This document shows positions 1,620-59,019 of a stretch of 64,000 bases of DNA, piece by piece. Positions within the stretch are counted from its first letter, which is position 1, and each line of letters begins with the position of its first letter. The notes under the pieces are model-generated. The model ran no database searches. It was not told the origin of the DNA and saw nothing but the letters and a program-made list of their open reading frames with translations. The DNA is from Agrococcus beijingensis (lineage in GTDB: Bacteria > Actinomycetota > Actinomycetes > Actinomycetales > Microbacteriaceae): contig NZ_CP132360.1 in the NCBI RefSeq assembly GCF_030758955.1, positions 812,905 to 876,904 of the forward strand, in the 5' to 3' direction. Position numbers and translations under genes: made by a program.

Positions 1620-1735
1620 GCACAACGCAAGCCCGCCCGACCCATCGTGGGCCGAAAGGCGGCTGCTCCGGCCGCGGGCCGCAAGACGGGGCCGCCGGGC
1701 TTGCGTTGTGCGGGGCCGCCGGGCTTGCGTCGTGC
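1620..1735. repeat. dispersed inverted-repeat element, copy 1
   Basis: Left arm GCACAACGCAAGCCCGCC (1620-1637) faces a right arm CCGGGCTTGCGTTGTGC (1695-1711), then a second, slightly changed right arm CCGGGCTTGCGTCGTGC (1719-1735). The same arms recur in inverted orientation at 9786-9877, so this is a dispersed family rather than a local hairpin. The extra right arm suggests a partial duplication. Confidence 0.75.
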
Positions 1736-9785: not shown

Positions 9786-9877
9786 GCACAACGCAAGCCC
9801 GCCAGCCTCGTTCCGCGACGGACGCGCCCCCACCGGGGCGGCGGCCGCCGGATCGGCTCGGCGGGCTTGCGTTGTGC
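9786..9877. repeat. dispersed inverted-repeat element, copy 2
   Basis: Arms GCACAACGCAAGCCCGCC (9786-9803) and GGCGGGCTTGCGTTGTGC (9860-9877) are an exact 18-base inverted repeat with a 56-base GC-rich centre. The arms match copy 1 at 1620-1711. The position right after an operon end would also suit a terminator-like role. Confidence 0.8.
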
Positions 9878-15525: not shown

Positions 15526-16517
15526 AGCCCGGCCCCCCTCCGCAGCGCGTCGTCGCCGGTGAGGTCGTCGCCGGGGCGGCGGCGGGTCTCGGGCGCGAGG
15601 GCGTCGTCGGCGACATAGGTGTCGGCGGCCATGCCGGTCGGGTTGGCGCCGTAGGCGCCGCCCAGCGACGACGGGGAGTCCGTGTCCGTGTCGTAGGCGG
15701 TGTCGTAGCGAGTGTCGTAGCGACCGCCCGAGCCGGTGCCGTAGGCGGTCTGCGCGCGAGCGGAGCGCTCGTGCTCGTCCTTGGCCTGGCCGATCATGCC
15801 GCTCGTGAGACGGCCGACGATGAGGCCGGCGACGCCCGCGATGGCGATGAAGGTGCCGGGGCGGCGGCGCGCGAAGCGCTTGACCTCGTCGAGCAGGTCG
15901 GCCGGCTCACGATCCTCGAGCCAGCGCCCTGCTGCGTCGATGCGATCGCCCGCCTCGCCGATCAGCTGCGCGGCGAATCCGCTCTGCGGCGAACCCTCGC
16001 CCGACGCCATCTTGCGCAGGTCGTCGCCGAAGGTGTGCATGCCCTGCGCCGCCCGGTGCTGCTGCGTCTTAGCCTGCGACGAGGCCTCGTGCATCGTCTC
16101 GTCGAGCAGGCGCTTGCCCTGCGCCTTCGCCTCCGAGGCCACGTGGCGTGCCTCTTCCTTCGCCGTGCCGGTCACCCGTCGCCCCGCATCCTTCGCGGTG
16201 TCGGCGACGTGGGCAGCCTCCTCCTTGGCGGTGTCGGTGGTGCCGCCCCCGGAGGAGCCGGTCGCGGTGCCGCCGGCGCCGTAGCCTCCGGTGCCGCCGG
16301 TCGCGGCGCCTGAGCTGGTCGTCCCGGTGACGCTGGTGGTACCGGTCGTCCCGGTGGTGCCGGTCGTTCCGGTGGTTCCCGTGGTGCCGGTGCGCGTGGT
16401 CCCAGCGCCGGCGCCGGTGCCCCCGGGGGTACCGGTCTGCGGCATGTTCGTGCCGGGAACCGCGGCACTCGCGGGGATGCGGACCTCGTCGGGTCCGGGC
16501 TGCTGCACGTTGGTCAT
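15522..16517 (-). CDS. membrane-anchored protein with Thr/Gly repeats
   Basis: A 331-residue first gene of the three-gene operon. After MTNVQQPGPDEVR comes a Thr/Gly region with at least six tandem TTG tripeptides (about residues 42-62), then a Lys/Ala/Glu helix with repeated TAKE(E/D)A units, a helical domain (HTFGDDLRKMASGEGSPQSG), one membrane segment (GTFIAIAGVAGLIVGRLTSG, about 235-254) and a tyrosine-rich tail with RYDTRYDTAYDTDTD. The start ATG 16517 is preceded by GGACGGATC. It resembles LEA-like envelope stress proteins. No exact family identified. Confidence 0.65.
   Translation of the reverse strand: MTNVQQPGPDEVRIPASAAVPGTNMPQTGTPGGTGAGAGTTRTGTTGTTGTTGTTGTTGTTSVTGTTSSGAATGGTGGYGAGGTATGSSGGGTTDTAKEEAAHVADTAKDAGRRVTGTAKEEARHVASEAKAQGKRLLDETMHEASSQAKTQQHRAAQGMHTFGDDLRKMASGEGSPQSGFAAQLIGEAGDRIDAAGRWLEDREPADLLDEVKRFARRRPGTFIAIAGVAGLIVGRLTSGMIGQAKDEHERSARAQTAYGTGSGGRYDTRYDTAYDTDTDSPSSLGGAYGANPTGMAADTYVADDALAPETRRRPGDDLTGDDALRRGAGL
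16325..16400. repeat. 9-base tandem repeats encoding Thr-Thr-Gly
   Basis: Consecutive 9-base units of type GGTGGTGCC/GGTCGTTCC (plus strand) encode the TTG tripeptide run. Synonymous changes between units indicate selection on the protein repeat or old expansion. Confidence 0.7.
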
Positions 16518-39444: not shown

Positions 39445-40934
39445 GACGAGCCAAGATCGTCGCGACGTTCGGGCCGGCACTCGCCGGCTATGAGATGACC
39501 AGGGCCGCGATCGCGGCCGGCATCAACGTCGCACGCATGAACCTCAGCCACGGAGACCGCAGCGTTCACGAGGAGGTGTACGCGAACATCCGCCGGGCCT
39601 CCGACGAGCTCGGCAAGCCGGTCGGCATCCTGGTCGACCTGCAGGGCCCGAAGATTCGGCTCGGCAAGCTCGCGAACGGCCCTCACGAGCTCGTCGAGGG
39701 GGCGCGCTTCACGATCACCACCGATGACATCGAGGGCGACGGCGAGCGCGCCAGCACCACGTTCACGGGCCTCCCGGCCGACGTGAAGCCGGGCGACCCG
39801 CTGCTGATCGACGACGGCCGCATCACCCTGAAGGCCGTCGAGGTCACCCCGACCGACGTGATCACCGAGGTCGTCATCGGCGGGCCGGTGAGCAGCAACA
39901 AGGGCATCAACCTGCCCGGCGTGGCCGTCAACGTGCCCGCGATGAGCGAGAAGGACGAGTCCGACCTGCGCTGGGCGCTCGACCTCGGCGCCGACATCAT
40001 CGCGCTGTCGTTCGTGCGCGACGCCAAGGACATCGAGCGCGTGCACGCGATCATGGACGAGGAGGGGCGCCGCCTGCCGGTGGTCGCGAAGATCGAGAAG
40101 CCGCAGGCGGTCGAGAACCTGTCCGACATCATCGACGCGTTCGACGCGATCATGGTCGCGCGCGGCGACCTCGGCGTCGAGCTGCCGCTCGAGCAGGTGC
40201 CGCTCGTGCAGAAGCGTGCGATCGAGCTGGCCCGACGGTGGGCGAAGCCCGTCATCGTGGCGACGCAGGTGCTCGAGTCGATGATCGAGAACTCCCGCCC
40301 GACGCGCGCGGAGGCGAGCGACTGCGCCAACGCGATCCTCGACGGCGCAGATGCGGTGATGCTCTCGGGCGAGACCAGCGTCGGCAAGCACCCGATCGTC
40401 ACGATCGAGACGATGGCGCGCATCGTCGAGGCTGCGGAGGAGCAGGGCCTCGGCCGCATCCCCCCGCTCGGCACGAAGCCGCGCACGCAGGGCGGCGCAG
40501 TGACGCTCGCCGCGCTCGAGGTGGCCGACTTCGTCGACGCCGCCGCGATCGTGGTGTTCACCGAATCGGGCGACTCGGCACGCCGCATGTCGCGGCTGCG
40601 CTCGAAGATCCCGATGTTCGGCTTCACGCCCGACCCCGAGGTCGAGTGCCGCATGCAGATGGTGTGGGGCATGAACACCCACCTCGTCGACCGCGTCACG
40701 CACACCGACGAGATGATCGCGCAGGTCGACGACGTGCTGATCGGCAAGAAGCTGGTGCCCGTCGGCAAGAAGGTGGTCGTGATCTCGGGCATGCCGCCCG
40801 GCACGTCCGGCTCGACGAACGACCTGCGCATCCACACGGTGGGCGACGTGCACGCCGAGGCGGTGCCGGCGTACCACGGCCTGCGCCGCATCCAGGTGCC
40901 GCACCCGTCGGCGCCGCACCCCGCTGACGCCTAG
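39441..40934 (+). CDS. pyk: pyruvate kinase
   Basis: A 497-residue glycolytic enzyme making pyruvate and ATP from PEP and ADP. Motifs: MRRAKIVATFGPALAGYEMT, ARMNLSHGDRSVHEEVYANI, VDLQGPKIRLGKLANG, PVVAKIEKPQAVENLSDI with the catalytic Lys, MVARGDLGVELPLEQVPLVQ and the allosteric C-terminal domain from about residue 350. A P in TFGPALAGY replaces the usual Thr-Ser of the ATSGP-type start. GGAAGCGAG precedes ATG 39441 at 8-12 bases. The upstream six-codon ORF overlaps the start. Confidence 0.95.
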   Translation: MRRAKIVATFGPALAGYEMTRAAIAAGINVARMNLSHGDRSVHEEVYANIRRASDELGKPVGILVDLQGPKIRLGKLANGPHELVEGARFTITTDDIEGDGERASTTFTGLPADVKPGDPLLIDDGRITLKAVEVTPTDVITEVVIGGPVSSNKGINLPGVAVNVPAMSEKDESDLRWALDLGADIIALSFVRDAKDIERVHAIMDEEGRRLPVVAKIEKPQAVENLSDIIDAFDAIMVARGDLGVELPLEQVPLVQKRAIELARRWAKPVIVATQVLESMIENSRPTRAEASDCANAILDGADAVMLSGETSVGKHPIVTIETMARIVEAAEEQGLGRIPPLGTKPRTQGGAVTLAALEVADFVDAAAIVVFTESGDSARRMSRLRSKIPMFGFTPDPEVECRMQMVWGMNTHLVDRVTHTDEMIAQVDDVLIGKKLVPVGKKVVVISGMPPGTSGSTNDLRIHTVGDVHAEAVPAYHGLRRIQVPHPSAPHPADA

Positions 40935-40950
40935 TCCCGGCGTCACGACG

Positions 40951-40986
40951 ACGACGGCCCGTCCTCTTCCGAGGGCGGGCCGTCGT
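40951..40986 (+). terminator. pyk terminator hairpin
   Basis: ACGACGGCCCG (40951-40961) pairs with CGGGCCGTCGT (40976-40986), with inner CCTC-TTCC-GAGG pairing; a continuous stem of about 15 pairs. Confidence 0.85.
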
Positions 40987-40990
40987 GCTG

Positions 40991-41072
40991 TACCGGTGAT
41001 GGGACTCGAACCCACACTCCTCGCGGAAGCGCAGTTTGAGTGCGCCGCGTCTGCCAATTCCGCCACACCGGC
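40991..41072 (-). tRNA. tRNA-Leu, anticodon CAA
   Basis: An 82-base type II tRNA. D arm with GAATTGGCAGA loop, anticodon stem GCGCA/TGCGC with loop CTCAAAC (anticodon CAA, decoding UUG), a 13-base variable arm and T loop TTCGAGT. The acceptor stem pairs GCCGGTG with CACCGGT, giving a G1-U72 wobble, with A73 as discriminator; CCA is not encoded. UUG is a very rare codon in this GC-rich genome. It lies between pyk and the ANTAR regulator, reading against both. Confidence 0.93.
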
Positions 41073-41107
41073 TCGGGCCGCGGACCGAGGTCCGGTCGAC
41101 CGAAGAC

Positions 41108-41113
41108 TAGGCT
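41108..41113 (+). promoter_or_regulatory. -10-like TAGGCT, leaderless start
   Basis: TAGGCT is seven bases (AGTGGTC) before ATG 41121. Confidence 0.55.
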
Positions 41114-41120
41114 AGTGGTC

Positions 41121-41762
41121 ATGACCGATGATCTCTTCGCTGAGCCCATGACCGACACGGCTCCTGCCGAGAGCACCACCAGGGCGCGCACCGTGCTGGT
41201 CGCCGAGGACGAGTCGCTCATCCGCCTCGACATCGTCGAGACGCTGCAGGCGGCGGGCTACGACGTGATCGGCGAGGCCGGCGACGGCGAGCGCGCCGTC
41301 GAGCTGGCGACCGAGCTCGTGCCCGACCTGATCGTCATGGACGTCAAGATGCCCAAGATGGACGGCATCACCGCAGCCGAGAAGATCGGTGCCCTGAAGC
41401 TGGCGCCCGTCGTGCTGCTGACGGCGTTCAGCCAGAAGGAGCTCGTGGAGCGCGCCGGCGAGGCGGGCGCCATGGCCTACGTGGTCAAGCCCTTCACGCA
41501 GAACGACCTGCTGCCGGCGATCGAGATCGCCCTGGCGCGCTGGGATCAGATCCGCGCGCTCGAGTCGGAGGTCGGCGACCTCGTCGAGCGCTTCGAGACG
41601 CGCAAGCTCGTCGACCGCGCGAAGGGCCTGCTGAACCAGCGCATGGGCCTCGCCGAGCCCGAGGCGTTCCGCTGGATCCAGAAGGCCTCGATGGACCGTC
41701 GCCTCACGATGGCCGAGGTCGCGCAGGCCGTCATCGAGCAGCTCGACCCCAAGAAGAAGTAG
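41121..41762 (+). CDS. ANTAR-domain response regulator (PdtaR-like)
   Basis: A 213-residue RNA-binding response regulator. The receiver domain (about residues 23-140) has TVLVAEDESLIRLDIVETLQ, the phospho-Asp in LIVMDVKMPKMDGITAAEKI and YVVKPFTQNDL; a coiled linker is followed by the ANTAR domain (about 155-208, ETRKLVDRAKGLLNQRMGLA, PEAFRWIQKASMDRRLTM). ANTAR domains bind paired hexaloop RNA hairpins to cause antitermination. This matches mycobacterial PdtaR, which occupies the same pyk-polA neighbourhood in actinobacteria. Its stop lies eight bases before the first repeat array. Confidence 0.9.
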   Translation: MTDDLFAEPMTDTAPAESTTRARTVLVAEDESLIRLDIVETLQAAGYDVIGEAGDGERAVELATELVPDLIVMDVKMPKMDGITAAEKIGALKLAPVVLLTAFSQKELVERAGEAGAMAYVVKPFTQNDLLPAIEIALARWDQIRALESEVGDLVERFETRKLVDRAKGLLNQRMGLAEPEAFRWIQKASMDRRLTMAEVAQAVIEQLDPKKK

Positions 41763-41770
41763 CCCCCGCC

Positions 41771-42060
41771 TGAGTGGCGCCTCCCGCACCTGACTGGCGC
41801 CTCCCGCACCTGAGTGGCGCCTCCCGCACCTGAGTGGCGCCTCCCGCACCTGAGTGGCGCCTCCCGCACCTGAGTGGCGCCTCCCGCACCTGAGTGGCGC
41901 CTCCCGCACCTGAGTGGCGCCTCCCGCACCTGAGTGGCGCCTCCCGCACCTGAGTGGCGCCTCCCGCACCTGAGTGGCGCCTCCCGCACCTGACTGGCGC
42001 CTCCCGCAGGTGAGTGGCGGCTCCCGCAGGTGAGTGGTGGCTCCCGCAGGTGAGTGGGTG
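41771..42060. repeat. 20-bp tandem array A (inverted relative to array B)
   Basis: Fourteen complete 20-base units of consensus TGAGTGGCGCCTCCCGCACC (41771-42050) plus a partial unit. Units at 41791 and 41991 read TGACTGGC instead of TGAGTGGC; the last three, nearest the DUF559-like gene, end in CAGG and are more diverged (GGCGG, GGTGG). Each unit contains the palindrome GGCGCC. No spacers, so not CRISPR. It begins eight bases after the ANTAR regulator stop. Confidence 0.95.
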
Positions 42061-42142
42061 AGCGACACGTCTCGGCGCCTGACGAGCGGTTCTCCACAGC
42101 AACGCCCTTCTCGACGGCCACATCCCGGCAACATCGCCGACG

Positions 42143-43033
42143 ATGCCGCGCATGGATTCACCACACGGCTTCACCGTCCGCGCTGGCCTCGACCGCGGGT
42201 ACACCGCTTCGGAGCTCCGCTCCATGGCCTTCACCTCGCCGGCTCGCGGGGCGCGCATCACGGCAGCCATCGGCGACCGGGCGCAGGCGCTCCTCGAAGC
42301 GGTCTGCGTCCTCGCCATGGACGACCAGTTCTTCTCGCACTCCACTGCGGCGCGCATCCATGGCATGCCCTTGCCCGCGCGCCTCGAGACCGAAGGGCGG
42401 GTCCACCTCGCATCGCCGACCGGCCGCGCACGCATGCAACGCCCGGGCGTCGTGGGCCACCGCCTCAAGTCCCAGACCGTCGTGGTCGACGGCCTGCTGG
42501 TCGAAGCCCGCGCAGACACGTTCGTGCACCTCTCGGCGATGCTGACGGTCGAGGAGCTCGTCACGATCGGCGACTGGCTCGTGTCGCCCAAGCGTCGGGC
42601 GCCGCTGTCGGTCGACGACCTGACGGATGCGCTGCGGCGCTACAACGGGGCACGCGGGCTTCACCGCGCGAGGCGTGCGCTGGCACTGGTCAGGGTCGGC
42701 TCGGAGTCGCCGCGGGAGACGCTGGTGCGGCTGCTCGTCATCGGCTCGCTGCCCGAGCCGACGCTGCAGCACGAGGTCTTCGACGAATCGGGGACCTTCG
42801 TCGCGCGGCTCGACCTGAGTTGGCCGAAGCTCAAGCTCGGCGTGGAGTACGACGGCGAGCACCACACCGAGCCGGCGCAACGAGCGCGGGATCAGGTTCG
42901 GCTCGAGCGACTTCGTGCCCTGGGCTGGCACATCATCACGGTCACCAAGCACGATCTGGAGGACGGCGGCGAGCGACTGCTCGCAGAGATCGTGGCCGGG
43001 CACCGTCGCTACACCTCGTGGACCGCCGCCTGA
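42143..43033 (+). CDS. DUF559-like (PD-(D/E)XK/Vsr-fold) protein between repeat arrays
   Basis: A 296-residue protein with two parts. The N-terminal half ([39 protein letters not shown]) resembles the AbiEi/winged-helix-like front part seen in many actinobacterial DUF559 proteins. The C-terminal part has the nuclease-like core: FVARLDLSWPKLKLGVEYDG, then EHHTEPAQRARDQVRLERLR, then ALGWHIITVTKHDLEDGGER; candidate metal ligands are the Asp in RLDLSW, and Glu and Asp in VEYDGEHH. The start is uncertain: ATG 42143 or 42152, without a clear ribosome binding site. It is bracketed by inverted 20-bp arrays. Function unknown; DNA cleavage or repair-type activity is inference. Confidence 0.75.
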   Translation: MPRMDSPHGFTVRAGLDRGYTASELRSMAFTSPARGARITAAIGDRAQALLEAVCVLAMDDQFFSHSTAARIHGMPLPARLETEGRVHLASPTGRARMQRPGVVGHRLKSQTVVVDGLLVEARADTFVHLSAMLTVEELVTIGDWLVSPKRRAPLSVDDLTDALRRYNGARGLHRARRALALVRVGSESPRETLVRLLVIGSLPEPTLQHEVFDESGTFVARLDLSWPKLKLGVEYDGEHHTEPAQRARDQVRLERLRALGWHIITVTKHDLEDGGERLLAEIVAGHRRYTSWTAA

Positions 43034-43050
43034 GCCAGGTCGACTCTTGC

Positions 43051-43350
43051 GGCGGGAGGCGCCGCTCAGACGCGGGAGGCGCCAGTCAGGTGCGGCAGGC
43101 GCCAGTCAGGTGCGGGAGGCGCCAGTCAGGGGCCGGAGGCGCCAGTCAGGTGCGGGAGGCGCCAGTCAGGGGCCGGAGGCGCCAGTCAGGTGCGGGAGGC
43201 GCCAGTCAGGGGCCGGAGGCGCCAGTCAGGTGCGGGAGGCGCCAGTCAGGGGCCGGAGGCGCCAGTCAGGTGCGGGAGGCGCCAGTCAGGGGCCGGAGGC
43301 GCCAGTCAGGTGCGGGAGGCGCCAGTCAGGTGCGGGAGGCGCCACTCAGC
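43051..43350. repeat. 20-bp tandem array B (inverted relative to array A)
   Basis: Fifteen 20-base units. From 43111 they alternate strictly between TGCGGGAGGCGCCAGTCAGG and a GGCCGGAGG variant, giving a 40-base higher-order repeat, until the last two units. The reverse complement of the array A unit differs from this unit at a single central base (CACTCAGG versus CAGTCAGG); the last unit (43331-43350) has the array A type. The array ends 10 bases before the thioesterase stop. Confidence 0.95.
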
Positions 43351-43360
43351 GGTGGGCGCG

Positions 43361-43810
43361 TCAGCGCGACTTGATGAAGTTCGTGATGCGGATGGTCGAG
43401 GCGCGGCGGCCCTCGTCGTCGGTGCAGACGACCTCGTGCACGGTCATGGACCGCCCGAGGTGGATCGCCGTGCACTCTGCCGTCACCCATCCGCTCTGGA
43501 TCGACCGCGTGTGGGTGGCGTTCAGATCGGTGCCGACCGCGTAGCGGCCCTCGCCGGCATGGATGTTGGCGCTCACCGAGCCGAGCGTCTCGGCGATCAC
43601 GCAGTACGCGCCGCCGTGCACGTAGCCGACCGGCTGCTTGTTGCCCTCCGCGGGCATGCGCGCGATCGAGTGCTCGGCCGAGAGCTTCACGAACTCGATG
43701 CCCATCCGATCGGCGAGCTGGCCGCCCGACCGCCCTGCGCGCTGCTCCGGCGAGGCACGGGTCGCGTCGTCGGGCTCGCGGGCCGCATCGGGCTCTGTGG
43801 GCAGCGTCAT
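43361..43810 (-). CDS. PaaI-family hotdog thioesterase
   Basis: A 149-residue hotdog-fold protein. The fold signature is KQPVGYVHGGAYCVIAETLG followed by SVSANIHAGEGRYAVGTDLN, with the catalytic-type residues in HGGAYCVIAE, and VTAECTAIHLGRSMTVHEVV later. Members hydrolyse acyl- or aryl-CoA thioesters; in actinobacteria this gene stands beside polA, and the substrate is usually unassigned. ACGGAG precedes ATG 43810. The stop is next to array B, so transcripts reading left would run into the repeat. Confidence 0.85.
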   Translation of the reverse strand: MTLPTEPDAAREPDDATRASPEQRAGRSGGQLADRMGIEFVKLSAEHSIARMPAEGNKQPVGYVHGGAYCVIAETLGSVSANIHAGEGRYAVGTDLNATHTRSIQSGWVTAECTAIHLGRSMTVHEVVCTDDEGRRASTIRITNFIKSR

Positions 43811-43867
43811 CGTGGCTCCGTGGGTGAGCGCACGGGGTGCGCGGCGTGGGCTGTCGGCAGCCCCGGC

Positions 43868-43873
43868 TAGGCT
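43868..43873 (+). promoter_or_regulatory. -10-like TAGGCT, leaderless start of polA
   Basis: TAGGCT is seven bases (GACTGCC) before GTG 43881. Confidence 0.55.
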
Positions 43874-43880
43874 GACTGCC

Positions 43881-46526
43881 GTGTCGGACACGAAGCCTAC
43901 CCTCATGGTCATCGACGGCCACTCCCTCGCGTTCCGGGCGTTCTTCGCCCTGCCGCTCGAGAACTTCGTCAACTCGGAGGGGCAGCACACCAATGCCATC
44001 CACGGGTTCCTGTCGATGCTCCTCAAGCTGCTGCAGGATCACAAGCCGACCCATCTCGCGGTCGCCTTCGACATCTCGCGGTTCTCCTTCCGCACCCGCG
44101 AGTACCCCGAGTACAAGGGCACGCGCGACGAGACGCCGAAGGAGTTCAAGGGGCAGGTGCCGCTGCTCGAGGAGGCGCTGCACGCCATGGGCGTGCGCAC
44201 CCTCACGAAGGAGGACTACGAGGCCGACGACATCCTCGCGACGCTCTCGGTCGAGGGCCGCAAGGCCGGCATGGACGTCTTCGTCGTCTCCGGCGACCGC
44301 GACACGATCCAGCTCGTCAACGACGACGTCACGCTGCTCTACCCGTCGGTGCGCGGCGTCTCCGAGCTCAAGCACTACACGCCGGATGCGGTGCGCGAGC
44401 GATACGGCATCGAGCCCGAGCAGTACCCCGAGATCGCGGCCCTGGTCGGCGAGACGAGCGACAACCTCGTCGGCATCGACAAGGTCGGCGAGAAGACGGC
44501 CGTGAAGTGGATCACGCAGTACGGCACGGTCGAGAACCTGCTCGCGCACGCCGACGAGATCAAGGGTGTGGTCGGCAACAACCTGCGCGAGCAGCGCGAG
44601 CGCGCCGAGCGCAACCGCCGCCTCAACAAGCTGCTCACCGACGTCGAGCTGGGCGTCGAGCCCGACGACCTGACCCGCGGGCAGGTCGACGAGGCGAAGT
44701 TGCGCGAGGTGTTCCAGCGGCTGCAGTTCCGCACGCTGCTCGATCGCGTGCTGAAGCAGGAGGGCAGCGGCGAGGCCGTCGCCGCGCTCGAGCCCGAGGT
44801 GCAGGCGCCCGCGGTGCAGAAGCTCGTCGACGAGGAGCTCGACCTCTGGCTGACGCGCGCCACGGGCACCGTCGCGGTCTCGATCGCCCCCGACGGCGTC
44901 GGCGGCATCGCGGGCTTCGGCGTCGCCACCGAGGGCGCGAGCGCCTACGTGCCCTACAAGTCGGGCACCGGTGACTACGACGGATTCGTGACCTGGCTCG
45001 CGTCGGACGCCCCGAAGGCGCTCCACGACGTGAAGGCATCCATCAAGCTGCTCGAGCGCGAGGGGCTGAGGATCGGCGGTGCGGCGCACGACACGCGCGT
45101 CGGGGCCTGGCTGCAGACGCCCACCGCGCCGCCGAAGACCTTCGAGCTCGACTGGCAGACCGAGGCGCTGCTGGGTGCGACGCTGCCGACGCCCGACCCG
45201 AACCAGCTCGTGCCCGAGATCGAGCCCGAGCAGCTCGGCACGGTCGCGTGGCTGACGGGCGAGCTCTCGCGCGCGCAGCGGCCGCGCCTCGACCCGGGCA
45301 CGCTCGGCGTGCTCGACGACATCGAGCTGCCGCTGATGCCTGCGCTCGTGCGCATGGAGCAGCAGGGCGTGCAGATGGACCGCGTGGTGCTGCAGCGCAT
45401 CCACGACCAGATGCGGGAGCAGGCCGCGGGCCACGCCGAGGCGGCCTACGCCGAGATCGGCCACGAGGTGAACCTCGGCAGCCCGAAGCAGCTGCAGACG
45501 GTGCTGTTCGAAGAGCTCGACATGCCGAAGACGCGCGCGACGAAGACCGGCTACTCGACCGACGCGCAGGCGCTGGCCGATCTGCAGGAGACGAACCCGC
45601 ATCCGTTCCTCGGGCTGCTGCTGCAGCACCGCGAGACGACGAAGCTGGCGCAGATCATCGAGAGCCTGCTGAAGGCGATCCAGGACGACGGGCGCATCCG
45701 CACCCGGTACGACCAGACCGGGTCGGCATCCGGCCGTCTGTCGTCGAACGACCCGAACCTGCAGAACATCCCGGTGCGCACCGAGGTGAGCCGCGAGATC
45801 CGCTCCGCCTTCGTGCACGGACCGGAGTTCGAGACGATGCTGACCGCCGACTACTCGCAGATCGAGATGCGCATCATGGCGCACCTCTCGGGCGACGAGG
45901 GGCTGATCGAGGCGTTCCTCTCGGGCGAGGATCTGCATCGCTTCGTGGGCAGCCGCATCTTCGGCGTCGACCCGAGCGAGGTGACGGCGCTGCAGCGCGT
46001 GAAGGTGAAGGCGATGAGCTACGGCCTCGCCTACGGGCTGAGCGCGTTCGGGCTCTCGAAGCAGCTGCGCATCTCGCAGGCTGAGGCGAAGCAGCTGATG
46101 CTCGACTACTTCCAGCGCTTCGGCGGCATCCGCGACTACCTGCGGGGCGTCGTGATGCAGGCGAAGGACGACGGCTACACGACCACGATCTTCGGCCGCC
46201 GCCGCCCGTTCCCCGACCTCACGTCGTCGAACCGCGTGCTGCGCGAGAACGCGGAGCGCCAGGCGCTGAACTCGCCCATCCAGGGCTCGGCGGCCGACAT
46301 CATCAAGCGCGCGATGATCGCCATCGACCGTCGCATCATCGACGAGGGCCTCGGCTCGCGCATGCTGCTGCAGGTGCACGACGAGCTGGTGTTCGAGGTG
46401 GCGACGGGGGAGCGCGAGGCGCTCGAGGCGATCGTGCGCGCCGAGATGGGCGGCGCCGCCGACCTGTCGGTGCCGCTCGAGGTGCAGGTGGGCGTCGGCC
46501 CCAACTGGGACGCCGCAGCGCACTGA
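43881..46526 (+). CDS. polA: DNA polymerase I
   Basis: An 881-residue protein. The 5'-nuclease domain spans about 1-300 (LMVIDGHSLAFRAFFALP; VFVVSGDRDTIQLVNDDVTL; GIDKVGEKTAVKWITQYG). The middle 3'-5' exonuclease-like domain (about 310-490) lacks the Asp/Glu motifs, as in most actinobacterial PolA, so no proofreading. The polymerase domain has TADYSQIEMRIMAHLSGDEG (motif A), RVKVKAMSYGLAYGLSAFGL (O helix) and MLLQVHDELVFEV (motif C). GTG 43881 is chosen on the TAGGCT spacing and homology start. Acts in repair and Okazaki fragment processing. Confidence 0.96.
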   Translation: MSDTKPTLMVIDGHSLAFRAFFALPLENFVNSEGQHTNAIHGFLSMLLKLLQDHKPTHLAVAFDISRFSFRTREYPEYKGTRDETPKEFKGQVPLLEEALHAMGVRTLTKEDYEADDILATLSVEGRKAGMDVFVVSGDRDTIQLVNDDVTLLYPSVRGVSELKHYTPDAVRERYGIEPEQYPEIAALVGETSDNLVGIDKVGEKTAVKWITQYGTVENLLAHADEIKGVVGNNLREQRERAERNRRLNKLLTDVELGVEPDDLTRGQVDEAKLREVFQRLQFRTLLDRVLKQEGSGEAVAALEPEVQAPAVQKLVDEELDLWLTRATGTVAVSIAPDGVGGIAGFGVATEGASAYVPYKSGTGDYDGFVTWLASDAPKALHDVKASIKLLEREGLRIGGAAHDTRVGAWLQTPTAPPKTFELDWQTEALLGATLPTPDPNQLVPEIEPEQLGTVAWLTGELSRAQRPRLDPGTLGVLDDIELPLMPALVRMEQQGVQMDRVVLQRIHDQMREQAAGHAEAAYAEIGHEVNLGSPKQLQTVLFEELDMPKTRATKTGYSTDAQALADLQETNPHPFLGLLLQHRETTKLAQIIESLLKAIQDDGRIRTRYDQTGSASGRLSSNDPNLQNIPVRTEVSREIRSAFVHGPEFETMLTADYSQIEMRIMAHLSGDEGLIEAFLSGEDLHRFVGSRIFGVDPSEVTALQRVKVKAMSYGLAYGLSAFGLSKQLRISQAEAKQLMLDYFQRFGGIRDYLRGVVMQAKDDGYTTTIFGRRRPFPDLTSSNRVLRENAERQALNSPIQGSAADIIKRAMIAIDRRIIDEGLGSRMLLQVHDELVFEVATGEREALEAIVRAEMGGAADLSVPLEVQVGVGPNWDAAAH

Positions 46527-58923: not shown

Positions 58924-58948
58924 GCCGACGCCCGTCCCGGGCGTCGGC
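58924..58948. terminator. second hairpin after uvrB
   Basis: GCCGACGCCC / GGGCGTCGGC with a GTCCC loop, just after the uvrB terminator. Confidence 0.6.
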
Positions 58949-59015
58949 TCGTCCCTGGCGCCCGTCGAGCCTCGTCCCTGGCGCCCGTCGAGTCACCTCT
59001 CTGGCACCCGTCGAG
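58948..59015. repeat. three tandem 22-23-bp degenerate repeats
   Basis: Units CTCGTCCCTGGCGCCCGTCG-AG at 58948-58970 and 58971-58992 and a diverged third at 58993-59015 (CTCTCTGGCACCCGTCGAG). Located between the uvrB terminator and the GntR gene end. Each unit includes a GGCGCC core, as in the larger arrays at 41771 and 43051, but the rest differs. Confidence 0.7.
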
Positions 59016-59019
59016 CCCC

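Follow-up and report, generated by a model that had tools for sequence, protein, structure and literature searches.

RAYTs are single, distinctive bacterial genes, each with its own flanking repeat, and the repeats occur as dispersed inverted doublets (REPINs), according to the sections of PMC3116915 available to us, which also call the spread and persistence of bacterial intergenic repeats unresolved even for REPINs. In the accessible part of PMC12907096, the Caulobacter protein VsrA is described as a Vsr-like DUF559 endonuclease whose role in mismatch repair is tied to a cytosine methylase. A link between DUF559 genes and repeats is absent from the available passages of PMC12306157, PMC12907096, PMC3116915 and PMC3710099, and a survey of the open-access literature, which leaves subscription papers and preprints mostly outside its scope, found no paper that assigns cognate repeats to DUF559 genes.

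Here we describe a DUF559-type gene of Agrococcus beijingensis lying between two inverted arrays of one 20-bp repeat, within a stretch of 64,000 nucleotides that was analysed as a whole (the window). The likeness to RAYTs (TnpA-REP) and REPINs is that a distinctive gene has its own repeat in its non-coding flanks (the window gene, 17/17 sites, and 19/30 genes elsewhere, thus not every DUF559 gene), that repeats differ between such genes of one genome (22 of 25 pairs dissimilar), and that the repeats are dispersed as inverted doublets, with six inverted pairs for the window unit, 19 for a second element (E4), further examples for two Microbacterium elements, and weak or absent dispersal for two from Mycolicibacterium. 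RAYTs, however, are Y1 tyrosine transposases, whereas the proteins considered here are DUF559/Vsr-fold PD-(D/E)XK proteins, and since this enzyme is unrelated to RAYT the pairing is not a RAYT system. A further difference from REPINs is that tandem 20-bp arrays replace single arms in one lineage.

With VsrA the window protein shares a DUF559 domain of the PD-(D/E)XK Vsr-like type, but the available text describes no repeat partner for VsrA, whereas here an N-terminal region precedes the domain and the gene is bracketed by repeats of its own. The homing endonuclease I-Bth0305I (3r3p) resembles it in the fold of the catalytic domain (E-value 0.11), but the window gene is a free-standing one flanked by two other genes, and if it has a target at all, the repeat would be that target. 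MITEs and insertion sequences carry terminal inverted repeats. They are comparable to our locus in having inverted repeats around a nuclease-like gene and dispersed gene-free repeats, but the scanned proteins lack a transposase domain and the gene occupies one site in 18 of 24 genomes, with related copies elsewhere in some.

The window locus and its nuclease-like gene

The first-pass annotation of the window had reported two inverted arrays of one 20-bp unit bracketing a single DUF559 gene, and both TRF and the list of open reading frames (ORFs) bear this out (Table 1), with 97% matches in array A and 90% in array B at a period of 20 bp. The flanking stop codons lie where it had placed them (41762 and 43361), and Pfam agrees on both neighbours. 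The units of the two arrays are mutually inverted, and their main difference is indeed one central base, the G/C in GA(G/C)TGG. The optimal inverted alignment pairs 41763-42047 with 43072-43355 at 254 matches. Along much of array B two main unit types alternate, and this difference in unit make-up argues against one array being a copy of the other. Searching 40500-44500 for known RNA families returned nothing besides one tRNA.

Table 1. Features of the window locus, E4 elements within the window, and DUF559-type genes of the same genome that pass the flank test.
Feature	Position	Strand	Evidence
ANTAR response regulator, left neighbour, syntenic anchor	41121..41762	+	Response_reg + ANTAR domains
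Array A, 14.4 copies of CCTGAGTGGCGCCTCCCGCA, in the orientation of the ANTAR gene	41769..42057	+	TRF, unit counts
DUF559 / Vsr-fold PD-(D/E)XK nuclease-like gene, 296 aa	42143..43033	+	ORF list, Pfam, alignment, fold match
Array B, 14.9 copies of the unit of array A, inverted	43052..43349	-	TRF, unit counts
Thioesterase ORF (4HBT), right neighbour, stop at 43361, ORF start mechanical	43361..44026	-	ORF list, Pfam
E4 element, arms 76 bp apart, extra arm at 1720-1735	1620..1711	.	pattern search
Second window E4 element, between ORF ends 9755 and 10033 (ORFs in other frames overlap)	9786..9877	.	pattern search
DUF559-type gene of the window	855 kb of the genome		flank test
DUF559-type gene with TCTCAACGTGTSAGGTG palindromes	761 kb of the genome		flank test
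DUF559-type gene with TGTGTGTCCG palindromes	1821 kb of the genome		flank test
DUF559-type gene	2431 kb of the genome		flank test
DUF559-type gene with E4	53 kb of the genome		flank test

In terms of domain composition, the window protein matches DUF559 (PF04480) at 22.4 bits, slightly above the Pfam cut-off of 20.6, and MTES_1575 (PF18741) at 27.6 bits, below the cut-off of 38.2; a newer MTES_1575 model is precomputed for the database copy of the protein. Pfam finds no AbiEi domain in it and a weak match, below cut-off, in one paralogue, and AbiEi_1 is precomputed for several homologues. Among the 7,995 scored candidates, chosen as those sharing most words, homologues carry AbiEi_1, DUF559 or MTES_1575 in varying combinations. 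Residues D224, E235 and D237 are invariant among 16 aligned sequences. The AlphaFold model has middling confidence (pLDDT 70.5, pTM 0.62), and Foldseek matches it to the catalytic domain of I-Bth0305I at a probability of 1.00 and a TM of 0.75 relative to the target, and further to PvuRts1I and NGO0050, with no match at E <= 0.001. None of the nine proteins scanned with Pfam has a Y1 or transposase domain, the only matches being DUF559/MTES_1575 or nothing; this, together with a fold search that leads to Vsr-type nucleases, agrees with the earlier statement that the protein is not a RAYT. The N-terminal part of the protein may be responsible for DNA recognition.

The 20-bp unit also occurs outside this locus and is not a locus-specific cassette. 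In the 2.89-Mb genome its pattern matches 137 times and the backward pattern never, which rules out chance or low complexity as the source of the repeat, and arrays occur at a dozen genomic places at least, with dispersed copies lacking a linked DUF559 gene. Inverted array pairs, always of identical polarity, are present at six places examined, with spacers of 129, 77, 1040 (the window locus), 15, 150 and 73 bp. The suggested stem-loop around the gene is thus no special feature of the window locus, as five other places have such pairs at 15-150 bp. By crude gene calls based on ORF scores (the thioesterase stop being from the ORF list), 12 of 18 arrays lie downstream of a stop codon in sense orientation, so that the inverted arrangement around the gene partly reflects two convergent neighbours, each with its array. 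The unit is ruled out as a hairpin, since the fold of three units is no more stable than that of shuffled sequence (z -0.4); for comparison, E2, E3 and the element of L100 reach z about -10, and E4 z -4.5. At one of these places (L046 1921-2808, G000:C1:1554920-1555807) a very uniform 45-unit array of GACTGGCGGCTCCCGTCGCT, 15 bp from an opposing 10-unit array, looks like a recent local expansion.

Gene and arrays at the same site in Agrococcus

The ANTAR neighbour is present in all 24 Agrococcus genomes (E<=1e-50), and the DUF559 gene adjoins it in 18. In a further genome (G014) the contig with ANTAR breaks off within array A and a separate contig carries the gene; with the place of the gene inferred, this is the nineteenth gene-bearing genome. 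Reading the sites directly from the DNA, with thioesterase and polA matches as position marks only, we find that the remaining five genomes (G002, G003, G010, G012, G015) have neither the gene nor these arrays between ANTAR and thioesterase, in line with the view that the block is inserted there. By eye, the 18 gene-bearing sites all have repeats on both sides, with letters specific to the species: units GAGTGGCGCC, GAGTGGTCAC, GAGTGGCCAC, GAGCGGTCGC, GAGTGGTCAT and GATTGGCCAC at some, few units or short palindromes at the others. A test for an element common to both flanks (the flank test) was scored at 17 of the 18, and all 17 passed. The five gene-less sites have none of the repeats of the gene-bearing sites, and two of them (G002, G010) have other palindromes. 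An orthologue elsewhere in the genome is absent in four of the five gene-less genomes (top paralogue <=37% identity), and G010 has paralogues of 56% and lower identity at other places. One gene-bearing genome (G006, L063) has its orthologue split into two frames and few array matches (11, control 4), as if gene and arrays were decaying together.

The pattern of four GANTGG at period 20 matches in 19 of the 24 genomes, and the five zeros are the five gene-less genomes, which are also zero for the backward control (Fisher 2.4e-5, kinship ignored). On a tree of the ANTAR gene and its upstream DNA, in which G012 and G014 have very long branches, the gene-less label needs three changes, and the independent events are therefore few; three of the gene-less genomes (G003, G010, G015) are incomplete (65-86%). 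Array counts range from 6 (G023) and 7 (G008) to 181 in the own genome. G016, with a count of 20, does not exceed its backward control of 18, the arrays being visible at the site itself. Other genomes also give control matches (e.g. G001 13, G014 25, G022 20). Since the backward pattern GGTNAG also fits the unit variant GGTGAGTGG, the arrays may themselves yield such matches, as judged from the pattern itself. A CGCCASTC trimer, whose backward control is also matched (e.g. G014 8, G016 14), matches in the genome of the window and in 13 of the 23 other Agrococcus genomes, in none of 13 genomes from the family's other genera, which rules out a repeat common to the whole family, and as one match in 1 of 23 genomes of the order.

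The first-pass annotation had regarded the association as chance if the repeat were found at many loci without a linked DUF559 gene and no empty-site polymorphism existed. Unlinked loci are indeed many, but dispersed copies are a prediction of a RAYT-like pair, and empty sites are found.

The palindrome GCGTGTCAGSTTGTTG at the gene-less site of G002 has a pattern that recurs, among the loci compared, only at L179, where it flanks a DUF559-type gene of G002 left and right (37% identity to the window protein; DUF559 13.9 bits, below cut-off), so that the partner gene was traced from an element with no DUF559 gene beside it. The palindrome at the gene-less site of G010 (L069), CGAGCTTCCCCGA.., has no partner among the loci compared, and its 13-mer with one mismatch also matches by chance.

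Flanking elements of other DUF559-type genes

Other DUF559-type genes, in Agrococcus and in other genera, often lie between two copies of their own distinct element, typically a palindrome of 60-90 nt. In the own genome five of the seven pass the flank test (Table 1), those at 1345 and 2756 kb being below its threshold. Downstream of the gene at 1821 kb (L051 3977-4440) are four palindrome copies 116 bp apart, apparently tandem duplicates of element and spacer.

A second case is E4, a doublet of GCACAACGCAAGCCCG arms that flanks the DUF559 gene at G000:C1:52875-53732; both E4 doublets of the window are about 760 kb from this gene. Orthologues (>=71%) occur in G004, G005, G007, G013 and G020. 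The doublets flank the gene on both sides in four of the six orthologues, the others having a left doublet and a right arm, or right arms only. The six genomes with an orthologue have 57, 33, 42, 15, 30 and 10 arms, versus 17 (G001), 10 (G014), 3, 2, 2, 1, 1 and eleven zeros in the 18 without (Mann-Whitney p 1.7e-4, kinship ignored), and the backward control is 0 in all 24. In the own genome the 19 doublets share a single polarity and a spacing of 75-76 bp. In a comparison of four copies conservation is limited to the arms and does not extend to the loop of about 60 nt, and copying of the whole element is not seen among them. The free loop favours arm-wise copying, or two protein-binding sites at fixed spacing, over transposition of the whole element.

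A search with the 16 aligned sequences gave 34 loci from Agrococcus and other genera, of which L098 was dropped for too short a flank. An element common to both flanks (score >= 20, against a cross-locus null that includes related arrays) is present at 24 of the other 33; the nine without one include an Agrococcus homologue of 51% identity (L088). We then took genes from 12 other genomes by PF04480 rank. A shared flank element accompanies 19 of these 30 genes and is lacking in 11, compared with 4 of 143 control genes from the same 12 genomes and the own genome (p 3.7e-14), the choice of genomes not being blind, as they are those of 13 loci picked from the 33-locus test, 12 of which had a signal there. 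Removal of two loci already in that test leaves 17/28 (p 8.6e-13). Within this set L118 and L121 duplicate the places of L106 and L086, and the ORF chosen for L116 was wrong. Among the four control matches, one (L144 15068-16061, Microbacterium sorbitolivorans) is a strong palindrome pair, CTGCATTTCTCCGCGCGGTCATCTG.., around an unrelated gene, possibly the element of yet another pair. Four partner genes (L179, L039, L090, L091) are below the Pfam cut-off for DUF559 and are DUF559-like by homology to the window protein.

Paralogues within one genome share elements in 3 of 25 pairs and have dissimilar ones in 22. Wider flank scoring passes 71 of 96 loci, which is not a fair rate, as the set leaves out eight of the nine no-signal loci, L095, L098, L100, L166 (the G014 copy) and both pieces of the split G006 gene, and holds near-duplicates such as L110 and L207. 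The similarity of elements seems to rise with protein identity, a trend confounded by genes at one site; with same-site pairs removed, elements are similar in 35 of 120 pairs at 45-60% identity versus 119 of 1,587 below 35%, which is suggestive only.

Dispersal varies, as counts in two other genera differ. Of the elements searched for in 420 kb of Microbacterium sorbitolivorans, two are present in 7 and 9 two-kb bins, counting those of the gene loci (controls 0), and a third appears in a single bin under a loose pattern but in none under a stricter one. Over 420 kb from Mycolicibacterium elephantis, one further place was found for one element and no further place for another.

Interpretation and rival explanations

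The idea of a RAYT-like relation, raised in the first-pass annotation, thus gains support from the co-occurrence of gene and arrays and from the own flanking repeats of other DUF559-type genes, at the level of association. The association is specific to the gene, gene and arrays co-occur, and several elements are dispersed. From this we infer that DUF559-type (Vsr-fold PD-(D/E)XK) nuclease-like genes are probably paired with their own private repeat in a manner like RAYTs and REPINs, the proteins binding, cutting and spreading it. A gene would retain copies of its repeat on both flanks, with more elsewhere in the genome; the N-terminal part of the protein would most likely bind the repeat, and the nuclease domain may cut at or near it, in a duplex, a hairpin or a replication intermediate. 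Repair or replication could then copy repeat arms to new places and keep the arms uniform. In the window lineage the arms of the element may have grown into 20-bp tandem arrays, in that direction, through repeated cutting and slippage; some other species have short palindromes and few units at the same site. More tentatively, these pairs could be a second class of replicator pairs in bacteria, evolved independently, in which Vsr/DUF559-type nucleases, often several per actinobacterial genome, each drive and depend on private palindromic repeats by break-and-repair copying of arms and not by transposition. We count against the pairing the few changes on the tree, the incomplete genomes, the low array counts of G023 and G008, the control of G016 and the persistence of E4 without an orthologue in G001 and G014, the unconserved E4 loops, as well as the loci without a shared flank, the Mycolicibacterium elephantis counts, the control pair at L144 and the partner genes below cut-off.

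The main rival explanation, which we consider unlikely, is that the repeats are operators: the N-terminal part would bind the palindrome to control its own gene, dispersed copies would be regulatory or decoy sites, and the nuclease domain would act elsewhere. The position of elements directly upstream as well as downstream of the gene speaks for it, as do the fixed arm spacing and free loop of E4, which fit two binding sites, and the AbiEi_1 matches precomputed for several homologues, with the weak one in a paralogue. In the window family, however, the placement of 12 of 18 arrays after a stop codon in sense (by crude gene calls) is not a promoter position, and growth of an array to 45 units is unnecessary for an operator. 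It is less likely still that the association is indirect, with general intergenic repeats spread by some other enzyme and dispensable DUF559 genes inserted or tolerated in repeat-rich sites. Such a history is compatible with arrays at many loci without DUF559, with the strong palindrome pair around one control gene and with the presence or absence of the DUF559 gene itself at the site; it is at odds with the 19/30 versus 4/143 of the flank test, with paralogues in one genome that seldom share elements, with orthologues that keep the same element across species, and with the lack of arrays in genomes without the gene.

A self-marking or conflict system, in which a restriction- or toxin-like nuclease would be accompanied by repeats that mark the chromosome or titrate the enzyme, making the pair addictive, appears very improbable: the immediate neighbours are a regulator and a thioesterase, neither a methylase nor a toxin, and E4 persists in two genomes without its gene, even though gene and arrays are absent together and the available passages of PMC3710099 state that a HEPN conflict protein contains a Vsr-type REase domain (MTES_1575). 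If the preferred reading of nuclease genes paired with private repeats is true, DUF559 nucleases would be a second, unrelated family of enzymes tied to repeats, and a comparison of the two independent systems could address the spread and persistence of such repeats; proteins so far labelled 'unknown function' would gain a function and, on the more tentative reading of replicator pairs, many actinobacterial repeats an origin. As each such gene brings its own candidate target sequence, binding and cutting are directly testable.

The window contains further short tandem repeats, at 16317-16392 and 58948-59017, of 27-bp and 23-bp units, respectively, and their consensus units are unlike the 20-bp unit.
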